Made by a program: the position numbers and the translations under genes. Below are positions 8,521 through 64,000 of a DNA stretch of 64,000 bases, one piece after another. How positions within the stretch are numbered: position 1 is the stretch's first letter; every line of letters begins with the position of its first letter. Below the pieces are notes generated by a model. That model ran no database searches and was not told the DNA's origin. It worked only from the letters and a program-made list of their open reading frames with translations. This DNA is from Allobosea sp. TND4EK4 (lineage in GTDB: Bacteria > Pseudomonadota > Alphaproteobacteria > Rhizobiales > Beijerinckiaceae). The stretch covers positions 248,001-312,000 of the forward strand of contig NZ_FTMO01000003.1 in NCBI RefSeq assembly GCF_900156025.1. Direction: 5' to 3'.

Positions 8521-9234
8521 ATGCTGACACGCAAGCAACACGAACTCCTGCGCTTCATCCAGGAACGCTTGCGCGAGAGCGGCGTGCCGCCCTCCTTCGA
8601 CGAGATGAAGGATGCCCTCGATCTGAAGTCGAAATCCGGCATCCATCGGCTGATCATGGCCCTGGAGGAGCGCGGTTTCATCCGCCGCCTGCCGAACCGG
8701 GCGCGGGCGCTCGAGGTCATCAAGATGCCGGACGGGGCTGCGGGGCCCCAGCCCCGGCGCTTCAACCCGGCCGTGGTGCAGGGCGGCCTGGCGAACCAGC
8801 CGAACGTCGCCAAGACGCGCCCGCCGGCCGCGCCGGATGAGGATGCGCGCGGGACCATCGCGATCCCGGTGATGGGCCGCATTGCGGCCGGCACGCCGAT
8901 CTCGGCGATCCAGAGTCGCAGCCATACCGTCTCGCTGCCGCCGGACATGCTCGGCTCCGGCGAGCATTACGCGCTCGAGGTCCGCGGCGATTCGATGGTC
9001 GAGGCCGGCATTCTCGACGGCGACACCGTCGTCATCCGCCGCCAGGACACCGCCAATACCGGCGACATCATCGTGGCGCTGATCGACGACGAGGAGGCGA
9101 CGCTGAAGCGTCTGCGCCGCCGCGGCTCCTCGATCGCGCTGGAGGCCGCCAACCCGGCCTATGAGACGCGGGTTCTCGGTCCGGACCGGGTCAAGATCCA
9201 GGGCCGTCTGGTCAATCTTCTGCGGCGCTACTGA
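8521..9234 (+). CDS. lexA: SOS response transcriptional repressor LexA
   Basis: LexA (237 aa) represses DNA-damage genes and self-cleaves when RecA filaments form. The N-terminal winged helix ([14 protein letters not shown] onward) recognises DNA. The C-terminal S24 peptidase domain shows the cleavage bond Ala123-Gly124 (GRIAAGTPI), the catalytic Ser158 (RGDSMVEAG) and Lys196 (EEATLKRL). The start MLTRKQ matches the family; upstream in-frame starts would extend into the promoter. The linker is long (about 70-110), as usual in alphaproteobacteria. A LexA box sits in its own promoter. Its last seven bases overlap the end of comEC on the other strand. Confidence 0.98.
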
Positions 9235-33273: not shown

Positions 33274-36200
33274 CTAGCGCAGCTCGACGCTCACCACCCC
33301 GGGAGCGGCCCGCACCGCGTTCGCGATCTGCTGGCTGACCGGAAACTTCCCCGGCAGCTCGATCTCGACCTCCTGGGCGCCGTCGTCGAGGATCATCACG
33401 ATCGAGACCTTGCCGTCCGAGCGCACCGCATCGCCGCGTGGCCGGATGCGCTCGGCGATGGAGGGCACGGCCTTCTCGTCGCGCAGATAGATCAGCAGGT
33501 CCTGCTTCTGGCGCGCGGCGAGGCCGTCGAGTTCCTCGGCGTCCTCGATGCGCGGGCGCACCTCCTCGCCATCGAGCACGGCCGAGAGCCGGAGCACCAG
33601 CGCCCTGCCCGGCTCCAGCAGGTCGCGCAGCTTCATCAGACCTTCGGAGAACAGCACCGCCTCGAACTGGCCGCTGGGATCCGACAGGTTGACGATGCCC
33701 ATCTTGGAGCCGGACTTCGTGCGCCGCTCCGACTTGTCGATGACCGAGACCGCGACCTTGCCGACGCCGGTGCCGTTGGCACGCACCGTCTGGGCGAAAT
33801 CGGCATAGCGCTGCACGCGCAGCCGCTTCAGGACATGCTCGTAATCGTCGAGTGGATGACCTGAGAGGAAGAAGCCGACCGCCTCGTGCTCGCGCTTCAG
33901 CTTCTCGGCAGGCGCCCAGGGCTCGACCTGCGGAATGCGAAAGGGCTCCTGCACCACGCCGTTTCCGAGCAGGTCGAACTGCCCGGCCGCCGTCTCGTCC
34001 CGGATGCGGTTGGAGAGCGCCAGCATGCCGTCGAGCGCCGCAACGGCCCGCGCCCGGTCCTCCATCAGCTCGTCGAGGGCGCCGGCGGCGATCAGCGCTT
34101 CCAGCGTGCGGCGGTTGACGAGCCTGGTGTCGATCCGGCGCGCGAGATCGGCGAGGTCACGGAACGGGCCACCGGCCTGCCGCGCGGCCACCAGCGATTC
34201 CACGGCCGCGGTGCCGACGCCCTTGATGGCGCCCAGCGCATAGAAGATCTTGCCGTCGGCGACGTCGAATTCGACGCCGGAGCGGTTGATCGCGGGTCGC
34301 TCGACCTTGATGCCGAGCCGCTCGGCATCGCGGCGGAATTCCGAGAGCTTGTCGGTGTTGCCCATGTCGAGCGTCATCGACGCGGCGAGGAACTCGACCG
34401 GATAGTTCGCCTTGAGATAGGCGGTCTGGAAGGCGACGACGGCATAGGCCGCCGCATGGCTCTTGTTGAAGCCGTAATCGGCGAACTTCGCCAGCAGGTC
34501 GAAAATCTCCGAGGCGATGTCGTTCTTGATGCCGTTCTCGATCGCGCCCTTCACGAAGCGGTCGCGCTGGGCGTCCATCTCCGCCTTGATCTTCTTGCCC
34601 ATGGCGCGGCGCAGAAGGTCCGCTTCGCCGAGCGAATAGCCCGACAGCGCCTGCGCGACCTGCATCACCTGCTCCTGGTAGACGATGATGCCGTGGGTCT
34701 CGCGCAGATAGGGCTCCATGCCGGGATGGAGATAGGTGGGGTCTTCCAGACCGAGCTTGCGGCGGCAATAGGTCGGGATGTTGTCCATCGGGCCCGGCCG
34801 GTAGAGCGCGACCAGCGCGATCAGGTCCTCGATCCGGTCGGCCTTCATCTCGACCAGCGCCTTGCGCATGCCGACCGATTCCACCTGGAACACGCCGACC
34901 GTCTCGCCACGGGCCAGCATCGCGTAGGTTGGCGGATCGTCGAAGGGCAGATCGGCGAGGTCGATGTCGATATCGCGCTGCTTGATCAGCCTCACCGCGG
35001 TGGTCAGCGTCGTCAGGGTCTTGAGGCCGAGGAAGTCGAACTTCACCAGCCCGGCCTGCTCGACCCATTTCATGTTGAACTGGGTGACCCGCATGCCGGT
35101 ACGCGGATCGACCGAGAGCGCGACGAGCTGTTCCAGCGGCCGGTCGCCGATCACCACGCCGGCAGCGTGGGTCGAGGCGTGGCGGTGCAGGCCTTCCAGC
35201 TTCTGGCCGATCTCCAGCAGCCGCGCGACGATCGGCTCCTCGGCCGCCGCCTGCTGCAGCTTGGGCTCGCCCTCGATGGCGTCCTTGAGCGAGATCGGCT
35301 TGGCCGGATTCTGCGGGACGAGCTTGGTCAGCTTGTCGACCTGGCCATAGGGCATTTCGAGGACGCGGCCGACATCGCGCAGCACGCCGCGGGCGAGCAG
35401 CGTGCCGAAGGTGATGATCTGGGCGACGCGCTCGGCCCCGTAGTGGTGCTTGACGTAGTCGATCACCTCTTCGCGCCGATTCTGGCAGAAGTCGATGTCG
35501 AAGTCCGGCATCGAGACGCGATCGGGATTGAGAAAGCGCTCGAACAGCAGGCCGAAGCGCAACGGGTCGACGTCGGTGATCGTCAGGGCATAGGCGACGA
35601 GCGAGCCCGCGCCCGAGCCGCGCCCCGGCCCGACCGGGATGTCGTGGGCCTTGGCCCATTTGATGAAGTCCGAGACGATCAGGAAGTAGCCCGGGAATTT
35701 CATCCTGGTGATGATCGAGAGCTCGAAATCGAGCCGCTTCTCATAATCCTCGACGCTGTAACCCTGGGCGGGGCCATGCTTGGCGAGCCGCGCCGCGAGG
35801 CCCGCACGGGCCTGCTCCTGCAGCTCCTCCGCCTCGTCGCGCCCCTCCTCGCCGAAACGCGGCAGGATCGGCTTGCGGGTGGTGACGCGCCAATGGCAGC
35901 GCATCGCGATCTCGACCGTGTTGGCCAGCGCTTCCGGCAGATCGGCGAAGCGCCTCTTCATCTCGGCGCGGGAGGCGAAATAGTGCTCCGGCGAAACGCG
36001 GCGGCGCGTGCCATCGGAGACGAGGCGCCCTTCCGCAACAGCCAGCAGCGCGTCATGCGCGTCGAAATCCGCCGGCTTGGCGAAAAAGGGCTCGTTCGTC
36101 GCGACGATCGGCAGGTCGGAATCATAGGCCAGGCGCAGGAGATGAGCTTCCAGCGCCGCCTCGTTGTCGCGGCCATGCCGCTGGATCTCGACATAGAGCC

Positions 36201-36747
36201 GGTCGCCATAGATCCGGGCCAACGTACCCAGCCGCGCCGCCGCCTGCGCCGGTTGGCCGTTGCGCAGCGCGAGATCGACGGGGCCGTCGCTGCCGCCTGT
36301 CAGCGCGATCAGCCCGCTTTGGAAAGCCGCGAGGCGCTCGACCGTGGTCACCGGCTGGCCGGCGCCGCCGGTCGCGAGCGCGGCCTCGCTGACGAGCTTC
36401 ATCAGGTTGCCGTAGCCGGCCTCATCCATGGCGAGCAGGACGATATGCGGCAGCCGCTGCATCTGGAGCGGACGCCTGCCCTCGCCCTCATCGGCGAAAT
36501 CGACGGATAGCTGCACGCCCACGATGGGCTGGAGCCCGCTGCCGGACAGCTTCTCGGAAAACTCCAGCGCGCCGAAGAGGTTGTCGGTATCCGTCAGCGC
36601 CAGCGCCGGCTGGCCATCGGCCGCCGCCATCTTGGCGAGCGTCGTGACGGTCATCGCCCCTTCGAGCAGCGAATAGCTCGAATGGACATGGAGATGGACG
36701 AAGCCGATCTCGGAGAGGATACGCCCCTCGCCCGCTTCCCGGCTCAT
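33274..36747 (-). CDS. dnaE: DNA polymerase III alpha subunit
   Basis: DnaE (1157 aa) is the replicative polymerase. The N-terminal PHP domain begins GFVHLHVHSSYSLLEG (about 16-30). The family-C polymerase core contains VGPGRGSGAGSLVAYAL near 372-388 and the catalytic aspartates in MPDFDIDF (413-420). The tandem helix-hairpin-helix, OB-fold (about 975-1050) and C-terminal tail are also present. Length and sequence indicate the replicative DnaE1 rather than the mutagenic DnaE2/ImuC. Immediately upstream on the same strand is a 36-aa SOS-type peptide gene, so dnaE may also be read from that promoter. No proofreading domain is fused. Confidence 0.97.
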   Translation of the reverse strand: MSREAGEGRILSEIGFVHLHVHSSYSLLEGAMTVTTLAKMAAADGQPALALTDTDNLFGALEFSEKLSGSGLQPIVGVQLSVDFADEGEGRRPLQMQRLPHIVLLAMDEAGYGNLMKLVSEAALATGGAGQPVTTVERLAAFQSGLIALTGGSDGPVDLALRNGQPAQAAARLGTLARIYGDRLYVEIQRHGRDNEAALEAHLLRLAYDSDLPIVATNEPFFAKPADFDAHDALLAVAEGRLVSDGTRRRVSPEHYFASRAEMKRRFADLPEALANTVEIAMRCHWRVTTRKPILPRFGEEGRDEAEELQEQARAGLAARLAKHGPAQGYSVEDYEKRLDFELSIITRMKFPGYFLIVSDFIKWAKAHDIPVGPGRGSGAGSLVAYALTITDVDPLRFGLLFERFLNPDRVSMPDFDIDFCQNRREEVIDYVKHHYGAERVAQIITFGTLLARGVLRDVGRVLEMPYGQVDKLTKLVPQNPAKPISLKDAIEGEPKLQQAAAEEPIVARLLEIGQKLEGLHRHASTHAAGVVIGDRPLEQLVALSVDPRTGMRVTQFNMKWVEQAGLVKFDFLGLKTLTTLTTAVRLIKQRDIDIDLADLPFDDPPTYAMLARGETVGVFQVESVGMRKALVEMKADRIEDLIALVALYRPGPMDNIPTYCRRKLGLEDPTYLHPGMEPYLRETHGIIVYQEQVMQVAQALSGYSLGEADLLRRAMGKKIKAEMDAQRDRFVKGAIENGIKNDIASEIFDLLAKFADYGFNKSHAAAYAVVAFQTAYLKANYPVEFLAASMTLDMGNTDKLSEFRRDAERLGIKVERPAINRSGVEFDVADGKIFYALGAIKGVGTAAVESLVAARQAGGPFRDLADLARRIDTRLVNRRTLEALIAAGALDELMEDRARAVAALDGMLALSNRIRDETAAGQFDLLGNGVVQEPFRIPQVEPWAPAEKLKREHEAVGFFLSGHPLDDYEHVLKRLRVQRYADFAQTVRANGTGVGKVAVSVIDKSERRTKSGSKMGIVNLSDPSGQFEAVLFSEGLMKLRDLLEPGRALVLRLSAVLDGEEVRPRIEDAEELDGLAARQKQDLLIYLRDEKAVPSIAERIRPRGDAVRSDGKVSIVMILDDGAQEVEIELPGKFPVSQQIANAVRAAPGVVSVELR

Positions 36748-36865
36748 GCCCTGCTCCCGCGCTTTCGACTCGACCTGCCCGCTCCCGTTATGGCGCCGGG
36801 CGGGCCTTCGCGTCGAGCCGCGATCACAGGCGCAAGCCGGCGGCTGTGGATGGCTGCTGACGCGC

Positions 36866-36976
36866 TCAGACGTGGGGCGCGGAGAGAATGGCGGCCCAGA
36901 GCCAGATCATGCCGAGGAAGACCCCCAGCGATGCGATCTCGGCGACGCCGGCGGCGAGCTTGCGGGCAGCAGTCAT
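36866..36976 (-). CDS. 36-aa single-pass membrane peptide under LexA control (SidA/TisB-like in size and topology)
   Basis: This short gene has an ATG at 36976, a GGAGG Shine-Dalgarno five bases upstream, and a TGA at 36866-36868. The product begins [13 protein letters not shown] and continues as one hydrophobic helix (about residues 14-33) with Trp25 and Trp27, ending PHV. Arg5 and Lys6 place the N-terminus in the cytoplasm. A consensus-like promoter with two LexA boxes lies directly upstream. Known SOS-induced membrane peptides of this size are Caulobacter SidA, a division inhibitor, and E. coli TisB, a depolarising toxin. I see no clear sequence match to either, so the role is inferred only. 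dnaE follows 118 bp downstream on the same strand. Confidence 0.75.
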   Translation of the reverse strand: MTAARKLAAGVAEIASLGVFLGMIWLWAAILSAPHV

Positions 36977-36989
36977 GTGAACCTCCGTC

Positions 36990-37032
36990 GTTCTCGATAG
37001 GTTCAATTTAGTTCCTGTTTTGTTCTCGTCAA
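36990..37032 (-). promoter_or_regulatory. SOS promoter with two tandem LexA boxes
   Basis: On the minus strand, -35 TTGACG (37032-37027), a 16-nt spacer and -10 TAAATT (37010-37005) form a good sigma70 promoter. One LexA box, GTTCCTGTTTTGTTC on the plus strand at 37011-37025, fills the spacer. A second, GTTCTCGATAGGTTC at 36990-37004, lies just past the -10 over the expected start site. The four GTTC units repeat every 10-11 bases, so they face the same side of the helix. Cooperative, tight repression is expected. Confidence 0.85.
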
Positions 37033-37075
37033 TTGCCGCGACGGAAGCGAACCTGGAAGCCGCCGGAGAGAGTCA

Positions 37076-37095
37076 ACGGGCCGTTAACGGACCGT
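37076..37095. repeat. 20-bp near-perfect palindrome between the SOS promoter and lolD
   Basis: ACGGGCCGTTAACGGACCGT has one mismatched pair and is centred on GTTAAC. It lies about 44 bp upstream of the SOS promoter -35 and 170 bp after the lolD stop. No T-tract follows on either strand, so it is not an obvious terminator. The rest of 37033-37264 shows nothing recognisable. Confidence 0.4.
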
Positions 37096-37264
37096 CGTCC
37101 TGCGGGCCGCGTCCCGGCAAGCCGGCAGATGGTGCCGACAAGGCCGATGGAGAATTCGGAACCTTTGCTTCCACCCGACGCGAGGGCGGCCGCCACCGGA
37201 GCGGTCCCCGGCATGGACCTTCCGCGCCGCCACCAAGCGGCCGCATTCGCTGCCGAGATGGCGC

Positions 37265-37957
37265 CTAGCGCAGCGGCACCACCAGCCCGTCGCGGATCGT
37301 GACCTGTCGGTCCATCCGGTGGGCGAGGTCGAGATTATGCGTGGCGATCAGCGCCGCCAGCCCCGAGGCGCGGGCGAGCGCGATCAGCGTGCCGAAGACA
37401 TGCTGCGCGGTCCCGGGGTCGAGATTGCCCGTTGGCTCGTCCGCAAGCAGGAGGCGCGGCCCGTTGGCGACCGCGCGGCCGATGGCGACGCGCTGCTGCT
37501 CGCCGCCGGACAATTCGCCCGGCAGATGGTCGAGCCGCTCGCCGAGGCCAAGGAAGGTCAGCAATTCGCTGGCACGCTCCTCCGCCACCGCCTTGCCCAG
37601 GCCGCGGATGCGCTGTGGCAGCACCACGTTCTCCAACGCCGTGAACTCCGGCAGTAGATGATGGAACTGGTAGACGAAGCCGATCTCGGTGCGGCGCAGG
37701 CGGGTGCGGCCCTTGTCGTCGAGCCTGGTGGTGGCGAGCCCGCCGACGAAGACCTCGCCGGCATCGGGCTTCTCCAGCAGGCCGGCGACATGGAGCAGCG
37801 TCGACTTGCCGGTGCCGCTTGGGGCCACCAGCGCCACCACCTCGCCCGGCCACAGCGCGAAATCGGCCTTGCGCAGCACCTCGAGCGGCGCGTCGGCCTG
37901 GGGATAGAAGCGCTCGACCTGCGAGAGGAAGAGCGCGGGCGTCTCCTGCGCGGCCAT
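37265..37957 (-). CDS. lolD: Lipoprotein-releasing ABC transporter ATPase LolD
   Basis: LolD (230 aa) powers release of outer-membrane lipoproteins from the inner membrane to LolA. Walker A is APSGTGKST (about 45-53), the Q-loop region is [18 protein letters not shown], which is typical for LolD, the signature is [14 protein letters not shown] and Walker B is [12 protein letters not shown]. Its ATG shares a base with the lolC stop (TGATG), so the two subunits are coupled. It is the last gene of the coaD-proS-lolC-lolD run. Confidence 0.96.
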
Positions 37958-43465: not shown

Positions 43466-43756
43466 ATGGCCAAGGCCTATTGGGTCGGCGCGTACCGATC
43501 CGTCAGCAACCCCGATGCGCTTGCCGCCTATGCCAAGCTGGCCGGGCCGGCGATCACGGCCGGCGGCGGCCGGTTCCTCGCGCGTGGCGTTCCGTCCCAG
43601 ATCTATGAGGCGGGGCTCGATCAGCGCACGGTTCTGATCGAGTTCGACTCGGTGGAGCACGCCAGGACCGTGCATGACAGCCCGGCCTATCAGGAAGCGC
43701 TGGCCGCGCTCGCCGGCGGAGCGGAGCGGGATATCCGCATCATCGAAGGCGTCTGA
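43466..43756 (+). CDS. DUF1330 domain protein
   Basis: This 96-aa protein belongs to the DUF1330 family (dimeric alpha-beta barrel fold). It begins MAKAYWVGAYRSVSNPDALAAYAKLA and contains the family core ARGVPSQIYEAGLDQRTVLIEF and HDSPAYQEALAAL. The function of the family is not established. The ATG at 43466 follows GAGG by about ten bases. It lies 75 bp after the ABC-F gene and may share its transcript. A small hairpin follows the stop. Confidence 0.88.
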   Translation: MAKAYWVGAYRSVSNPDALAAYAKLAGPAITAGGGRFLARGVPSQIYEAGLDQRTVLIEFDSVEHARTVHDSPAYQEALAALAGGAERDIRIIEGV

Positions 43757-62526: not shown

Positions 62527-62558
62527 TTGCAGCGTAAAGTTGCGTTCTCTATATGTTC
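62527..62558 (+). promoter_or_regulatory. dnaB promoter overlapped by a LexA (SOS) box
   Basis: The core promoter is -35 TTGCAG (62527-62532), a 17-nt spacer and -10 TATATG (62550-62555). A perfect LexA box, GTTCTCTATATGTTC, spans 62544-62558 and covers the -10. The dnaB ATG is at 62598. LexA binding would block the promoter, so dnaB should be partly induced by DNA damage unless another promoter serves it. Confidence 0.8.
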
Positions 62559-62597: not shown

Positions 62598-64000
62598 ATG
62601 GCTCCCGTCACAGCTCTCGTCGCCCGCCTCGACAATCGCGAGGCCGAATATCGCGTCCAGCCTCACAACATCGAGGCCGAGCAGGCACTGCTGGGCGCGG
62701 TGCTGGTCAACAACGACGCGTTCTACCGCGTCTCCGACTTCCTGCTGCCGGACCATTTCTTCGAGCCGATCCACCAGCGGGTGTTCGAGCTCGTCGGGAG
62801 CATGATCCGCGCCGGAAAGCTCGCCACGCCGATCACGCTCAAGACCTTCGTCGGCGATCTCGACCTCGGCGACATCACGCCCAGCCAGTATCTCGCGCGG
62901 CTCGCGGCGGAGGCGACGACCGTCATCAATGCCGGGGACTATGGCCGCACGATCTACGACCTCGCCATCCGCCGCCAGCTGATCGGCGTCGGAGAGGACC
63001 TCGTCAACGTCGCCTACGACGCGCCCGTCGAGATGGCGCCGCGCGAGCAGATCGAGGATGCCGAGCGCAAGCTCTACGAACTGGCGGAAAAGGGCCGCTA
63101 CGAGGGCGGCTTCCAGAAATTCGACGGGGCGCTCAGGCTCGCCATCGACATGGCGGCGAGCGCCTATCAGCGCGCCGGCGGGCTCTCCGGCATCTCCACC
63201 GGCCTGCGCGACGTCGACCAGCGCATGGGCGGTCTGCAGCGCTCCGACCTGCTCGTGCTCGCCGGCCGCCCCGCCATGGGCAAGACCTCGCTCGCGACCA
63301 ACATCGCCTTCAACATCGCCAAGGCCTGGCGCGGCGAGCGGCAGGAGGACGGCACCATCAAGAGCGTCGATGGCGGCATCGTCGGCTTCTTCTCGCTCGA
63401 AATGTCGGCCGACCAGCTTGCCACCCGTATCGTCGCCGAGCAGTCCGGCATCTCCTCCTACAAGATCCGGCAGGGCCGCATCACGGAAAGCGACTTCGCC
63501 AAGCTGACCGACGTCGCGGCGCAGATCGAGAAGCTGCCGCTCTATATCGACCAGACCGGCGGCATCTCGATAGCCCAGTTGATGGCGCGCGCCCGGCGCC
63601 TGAAGCGCCAGAAGGGCCTCGACGTCCTGTTCATCGACTATCTCCAGCTCTTGTCCGGTTCCGCCAAGAACGGCCAGAACCGCGTGCAGGAACTGACCGA
63701 GATCACGACAAGCCTGAAGGCGCTGGCGAAGGAGCTCAACGTTCCGATCGTCGCCCTCTCCCAGCTCTCGCGCCAGGTCGAGAACCGCGACGACAAGCGG
63801 CCCCAGCTCTCGGATCTGCGCGAATCCGGCTCGATCGAGCAGGACGCCGACGTGGTGATGTTCGTCTACCGCGAGGAATACTACCTCAAGGGCAAGGAAC
63901 CGCGCCCCGGCACCGAAGAACACAACAAGTGGCAGATCGAGATGGAGGCTATGCATGGCGTGGCCGAGCTGATCATCGGCAAGCAGCGTCACGGCCCCAC
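62598..64000 (+). CDS. dnaB: Replicative DNA helicase DnaB, 3'-truncated by the window end
   Basis: DnaB unwinds DNA ahead of the replisome as a hexamer. The 467 codons present cover the N-terminal domain (YRVQPHNIEAEQALLGAVL, about 19-37), the linker helix and most of the RecA-like motor. Walker A is GRPAMGKTS (about 222-230), Walker B LDVLFIDYLQLLS, and ESGSIEQDADVVMFVYREE is the family motif. Only a few tens of residues should be missing. No intein or insertion is visible. The start MAPVTALVAR follows an SOS-type promoter. Confidence 0.97.
   Translation, partial: MAPVTALVARLDNREAEYRVQPHNIEAEQALLGAVLVNNDAFYRVSDFLLPDHFFEPIHQRVFELVGSMIRAGKLATPITLKTFVGDLDLGDITPSQYLARLAAEATTVINAGDYGRTIYDLAIRRQLIGVGEDLVNVAYDAPVEMAPREQIEDAERKLYELAEKGRYEGGFQKFDGALRLAIDMAASAYQRAGGLSGISTGLRDVDQRMGGLQRSDLLVLAGRPAMGKTSLATNIAFNIAKAWRGERQEDGTIKSVDGGIVGFFSLEMSADQLATRIVAEQSGISSYKIRQGRITESDFAKLTDVAAQIEKLPLYIDQTGGISIAQLMARARRLKRQKGLDVLFIDYLQLLSGSAKNGQNRVQELTEITTSLKALAKELNVPIVALSQLSRQVENRDDKRPQLSDLRESGSIEQDADVVMFVYREEYYLKGKEPRPGTEEHNKWQIEMEAMHGVAELIIGKQRHGP

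Follow-up and report, generated by a model that had tools for sequence, protein, structure and literature searches.

A probable sidA ortholog with two SOS boxes 5′ of dnaE in Allobosea sp. TND4EK4

A short membrane peptide ORF and its promoter-like site

The window analyzed here is a stretch of 64,000 nucleotides from Allobosea sp. TND4EK4, in which a 36-codon ORF lies on the minus strand between lolD and dnaE (Table 1). The ORF begins with an ATG at 36976-36974 and its stop codon ends at 36866. The first-pass annotation, which left the strand unnamed, had described an ORF of this length and start with GGAGG five bases away, encoding a peptide with N-terminal Arg/Lys residues and a hydrophobic helix with two Trp, and all of these elements are present. 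The basic residues are R5 and K6, and the hydrophobic stretch (Kyte-Doolittle mean of 2.11 in a 17-residue window) contains W25 and W27. A TTGACG-16-TAAATT promoter carrying two boxes had also been claimed, and both the promoter-like site and the boxes were recovered. The −35 element spans 37032-37027 and the −10 element 37010-37005, and this was the single promoter-like site that a consensus scan detected in 36700-37300 (shuffles mean 0.0). Both SOS (LexA) boxes are exact, with one occupying the −35/−10 spacer and the other placed right after the −10, and thus a repressor bound to either would be predicted to block RNA polymerase.

Table 1. Window coordinates of the peptide locus, its neighbours and the lexA control site
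Feature	Coordinates	Strand	Basis
36-residue SidA-like single-helix peptide ORF	36866..36976	−	ORF call, genus profile match, pN/pS
Shine-Dalgarno GGAGG, 5 bases 5′ of ATG	36982..36986	−	sequence
Promoter-like site TTGACG-16-TAAATT	37005..37032	−	consensus scan
SOS (LexA) box 1, GAACAAAACAGGAAC, in −35/−10 spacer	37011..37025	−	exact match
SOS (LexA) box 2, GAACCTATCGAGAAC, right after −10, 21 bp from box 1	36990..37004	−	exact match
SOS box 5′ of lexA, positive control in same genome	8453..8467	−	exact match; lexA identity confirmed
dnaE, DNA polymerase III alpha subunit, 3′ neighbour	33274..36747	−	family match
lolD, 5′ neighbour	37265..37957	−	best family LolD, score under curated cut-off

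The box pattern GAAC-N7-GAAC occurs five times exactly in the window against 1.12 expected, and 0/100 shuffles reached five. Across the genome there were 94 exact matches compared with 47 for a reversed control pattern, so about half of the single exact matches may be due to chance. Pairs of boxes less than 50 bp apart are limited to two in the genome (by inspection), the peptide promoter being one and G000:C33:88241-88282 the other. The box just 5′ of lexA (ATG at 8521) is as expected for LexA autoregulation. The window match at 43631 sits within an ORF and was put down to chance. Another exact box, GTTCTCTATATGTTC, at 62544-62558 on the plus strand, lies about 40 bp 5′ of dnaB (ATG at 62598; NCBIfam match to replicative DNA helicase), and it is possible that this replicative helicase is under SOS control.

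On the 3′ side, 118 bp separate the peptide stop codon from dnaE, and a scan of this gap found no terminator-like site. On the 5′ side, lolD is accompanied on the same strand by a lolC/E-type permease gene that scores above its model's cut-off. Scans of the 36-residue peptide against Pfam and NCBIfam gave zero model matches, and eight relatives gave one chance-level match per library, far under the cut-off. In searches of phage and plasmid collections (E ≤ 1) the peptide was unmatched, as was the consensus in plasmids.

These features could describe several kinds of gene. TisB of Escherichia coli is an SOS-controlled short hydrophobic peptide, and TisB-type systems are controlled through a long structured leader and antisense RNA. 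A short single hydrophobic helix with Trp behind SOS boxes would suit a membrane-active peptide of the TisB/DinQ type, which would depolarise the inner membrane after SOS induction and leave the divisome unbound. Against this, the promoter-like site ends 28 bp from the ATG, leaving no space for a long structured leader, and the opposite strand is without a promoter-like site in 36700-37300 by the consensus scan.

Conservation and selection across the order and class

We asked how widely the peptide, its boxes and its position are conserved. At E ≤ 0.1, a single-sequence search matched 33 of the family's 199 genomes. Among 30 family loci examined, dnaE was downstream in the stretch in 22/30 and an exact box lay within 120 bp in 22/30. 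The eight loci lacking dnaE in the stretch belong to genus g15 (L023, L025, L026, L031) and genus g34 (L022, L024, L027) or are L034. In g15 and g34 the peptide gene seems to have moved, with exact boxes kept in g34 and near-matches only in g15.

A profile built from 28 family peptides, genus rows included (profile A1), matched 66/67 genomes of the genus, and the single miss is a 91%-complete draft of about 520 contigs. The reading frame, whose loss in close relatives would have spoken against a gene, is therefore kept. Weaker second matches in two genus genomes (G893:C19:37684-37764 and G163:C11:157482-157565) could be paralogs or chance. We then compared 35 genus loci, assembled from the best 30 of the 66 matches by removing four duplicates and including ten earlier loci, with the window's own locus counted once. 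dnaE was downstream at all 35 and lolD was found upstream at 31/35. GGAGG was present in 23/35 and an SD-like tetramer in 34/35. Exact boxes were found at 27/35, and 31/35 carried either an exact box or a pair of one-mismatch boxes; the count without an exact box is 8/35. Column conservation reached 0.91/0.84 in the −60 to −21 region and 0.82-0.94 in the ORF's first 100 bases, compared with lower values on either side (0.32-0.61 beyond −60 upstream and 0.30-0.73 between the ORF and dnaE).

The pN/pS ratio was 0.35 in the genus (9 sequences), three further groups of 10, 8 and 8 sequences gave 0.13, 0.20 and 0.38, and in each of the four groups 0/200 column shuffles gave a value as low. We conclude that the peptide is under purifying selection at the amino-acid level in four groups. 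Within the peptide, E13, which is near the N-terminal end of the helix, is invariant in 28/28 family rows, and an invariant acidic residue within the helix would be odd for a plain pore former of the TisB/DinQ type.

The order was surveyed through dnaE, with loci chosen without regard to peptide similarity. dnaE was located in 147/149 genomes and 146 upstream regions were scored, one being too short. We counted as positive an exact box within 700 bp together with an SD-like motif and a hydrophobic ORF of 24-60 residues starting ≤120 bp from the box. An exact box was found in 79/146 regions and the full arrangement in 67/146, while the reversed box gave 4/146 and 0/146, respectively, and shuffles gave 1/730. 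The full arrangement was thus absent from 79/146 regions. The number of positives is conservative, since the negatives include L333 and L337, which come from genomes with a peptide gene known 5′ of dnaE. Positives span 25 of the 44 sampled families, the window's family included. The 67 peptides have a median length of 32 residues (range 24-40); in 54/67 an acidic residue precedes a Phe by 9-11 positions, and 56/67 contain Trp. The shortest, at 24 residues, are L356, L383 and L399 of family f173, each with two boxes 18 bp apart; these members are without the C-terminal part of the others and represent a natural minimal form.

Across the wider class, 246/251 genomes yielded a dnaE. We sampled 90 upstream regions (30 loci and 60 more) as the best-scoring dnaE matches, and in this uneven sample the arrangement was present in 20/90, with 0 for the control box. 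Leaving out the window's family, the numbers were 17/86 regions and 10/49 families, and the members vary in length and core. The box-peptide-dnaE arrangement is therefore common and far from universal. A class-wide profile search matched 18/387 genomes, and 14 of these 18 matches (L043-L056) had neither box nor dnaE at the locus and look like chance.

These results bear on two simpler explanations. The ORF is very short and blank in Pfam and NCBIfam, as a chance ORF could be, and the conservation, the order survey and the selection results oppose that idea so strongly that we consider its probability negligible. It could also be a translated leader that tunes dnaE during SOS, with the peptide itself unimportant, given that it is on the same strand as dnaE with a gap that lacks a terminator-like site and that the corresponding gap in Caulobacter vibrioides is short. 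Selection acting at the amino-acid level argues against such a leader, as do the distance from the peptide stop codon to the dnaE match, which ranges from 38 to 496 bp across the 67 order loci, and the g15 and g34 peptide genes that stand without dnaE in the stretch. We therefore view a leader function as very unlikely. The same variable spacing is a counterpoint to a transcript common to the peptide and dnaE, which is possible given the missing terminator-like site and the short Caulobacter gap.

Relationship to the Caulobacter peptide

To place the peptide relative to Caulobacter we used the C. vibrioides DSM 9893 genome, reached through the ParB chain of PDB 6t1f at 100% identity. MipZ matches in the window's genome were set aside, being read as MinD- and ParA-like. 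C. vibrioides has a 29-residue ORF directly 5′ of dnaE, 35 bp from the assumed dnaE start; one of its boxes is exact and two have a single mismatch. The window peptide and this ORF therefore share the same place, 5′ of dnaE under SOS boxes. From 80 returned loci we picked 18 named genomes (16 Caulobacteraceae and 2 Rhodobacterales). An ORF scan found the peptide in 15 of the 18, and the order profile added Brevundimonas albigilva, so that the peptide is 5′ of dnaE in 16/16 Caulobacteraceae, though L278 scores just 4.6 bits. It was found in 0/2 of the named Rhodobacterales loci. Exact boxes occur in 11/16 Caulobacteraceae loci.

SidA is described as an inner-membrane inhibitor of 29 aa, controlled by LexA and interacting with FtsW and FtsN (PMC4211646), and sidA is listed as CCNA_02004 (PMC10769358). 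In the older numbering dnaE is CC1926 and recN is CC1983 (PMC1839093), and recN is CCNA_02062 in the newer one (PMC12700426). The recN offset of 79 would put dnaE at about CCNA_02005, beside sidA; the literature searched yielded no direct newer-numbering tag for dnaE. From the length, the boxes and this locus-tag arithmetic, we infer that the C. vibrioides 29-residue ORF is SidA.

We next compared the peptides as profiles. An order profile was built from 62 peptides of families other than the window's, selected on location, box and hydrophobicity and without regard to similarity. It matched the 13 Caulobacteraceae peptides with a probability of 94.8, an E of 5e-8 and a score of 30.9, and 0/100 permuted-column controls were as high (best 14.2). 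The window's family matched the order profile with a probability of 96.8 and an E of 3e-10 (0/100 controls as high, best 16.0). Set against Caulobacteraceae directly, the window's family gave a weak match (probability 28, E 6e-4, score 17.2, 1/100 controls as high). When 1451 translated frames of these 18 loci were searched with the order profile, the top 15 were the expected peptide at E 9e-7 to 0.008, and the first match elsewhere, to another frame, had an E of 0.9; the window-family profile alone was weak against the same frames, with a best E of 0.28. Judged by these profiles, the link between the window's family and Caulobacteraceae runs through the order's other families. The pattern that is shared consists of a short basic N-terminus, an acidic residue at the helix start (E13 here) and then a Phe.

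The first-pass annotation had proposed an SOS effector with a SidA- or TisB-like build, most likely one that inhibits division or acts on the membrane. That proposal is supported by the place shared with the Caulobacter ORF and by the order-profile link, with a direct match that is weak. The shared place and the sequence tie to the Caulobacter ORF lower the idea of a gene that is merely TisB-like, and taking these together with the promoter geometry and E13, we judge a TisB/DinQ-like function to be quite improbable. By place and transitive sequence similarity, the window gene is probably a sidA ortholog.

A related possibility is that the peptide belongs to the SidA family and has an SOS role with a shifted target, acting on another divisome or envelope protein instead of FtsW. 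The large divergence would fit such a shift, in that the window-family profile by itself matches Caulobacteraceae weakly and the members in the class survey vary in both length and core. The purifying selection seen in four groups and a core pattern common across the order argue against it, and we regard a change of target as unlikely.

Proposed role and comparison with known systems

Taken as a whole, the results are best explained if the window gene is a sidA ortholog, LexA-repressed and damage-induced, whose product holds the late divisome inactive, a reading to which we give a probability of roughly 0.8. In an undamaged cell, LexA bound at both boxes would cover the promoter and keep it silent. 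Upon DNA damage, RecA would prompt LexA cleavage and the promoter would be released, giving a transcript with a very short leader, probably about 20 nt. The 36-residue peptide would then be made and enter the inner membrane as a single helix, where it would be expected to bind the late divisome at FtsW, with FtsI/FtsN, and keep the complex inactive, such that septum closure is delayed until the damage is repaired. AlphaFold 3 models stated not to be of high confidence place SidA on FtsW helix 7 (PMC13396833). A SidA function outside Caulobacter is inferred. A broader proposal is that SidA is an ancestral SOS division checkpoint of Alphaproteobacteria, located 5′ of dnaE in many families, where transcription after damage would block septation and maybe read into dnaE, coupling division arrest to polymerase supply; to us this wider scenario is evenly balanced between true and false.

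The new part looks to be breadth, with a SidA-like family linked to dnaE in many families of Alphaproteobacteria. The literature searched, as titles and abstract starts among the matches listed and as the SidA passages of PMC4211646, PMC12700426, PMC13384398, PMC10769358, PMC9578287, PMC13396833, PMC5189948 and PMC10957082, named no SidA relatives beyond Caulobacter, and an earlier mention of wider conservation is possible. A Bradyrhizobium paper that appeared to mention SidA was discarded, the matched word being Holm-Sidak. For specialists, the breadth of the family across Alphaproteobacteria is the point of interest: it gives a candidate gene at a predictable address, 5′ of dnaE with SOS boxes, in over half of the order families sampled, and the natural variants form a comparative set for tracing the residues through which a 30-residue helix might lock the FtsW/I/N complex.

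Several known systems resemble the window gene in part. YneA, SosA and ChiZ are longer proteins. They are described as damage-induced membrane inhibitors of Gram-positive or mycobacterial species, reported or modelled to act on FtsW (PMC13396833). DinQ of E. coli is described as an SOS-controlled short hydrophobic peptide with antisense RNAs (PMC3567139). The window gene is like TisB and DinQ in encoding a short hydrophobic peptide under SOS boxes, and differs in having neither a long leader nor, by consensus scan, an opposite-strand promoter-like site, and in a place and an order-wide pattern that point to SidA. DidA of Caulobacter, 71 aa long, is described as a single-pass inhibitor that is induced by damage and targets the FtsW/I/N complex (PMC4211646). 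The window peptide is predicted to be an inhibitor of this sort, whereas DidA is SOS-independent, twice as long and the product of a different gene, and the window peptide has SOS boxes. The closest resemblance in kind is to SidA of Caulobacter crescentus, the shared features being a promoter with SOS boxes, a single short hydrophobic helix, a place 5′ of dnaE and the order-profile link. The two differ in length (36 residues here and 29 in SidA), in the WxW core of the window helix, in the gap to dnaE (118 bp here and 35 bp in Caulobacter) and in the boxes (two exact here, compared with one exact and two imperfect), and the window's family resembles the Caulobacteraceae peptides weakly in direct comparison.
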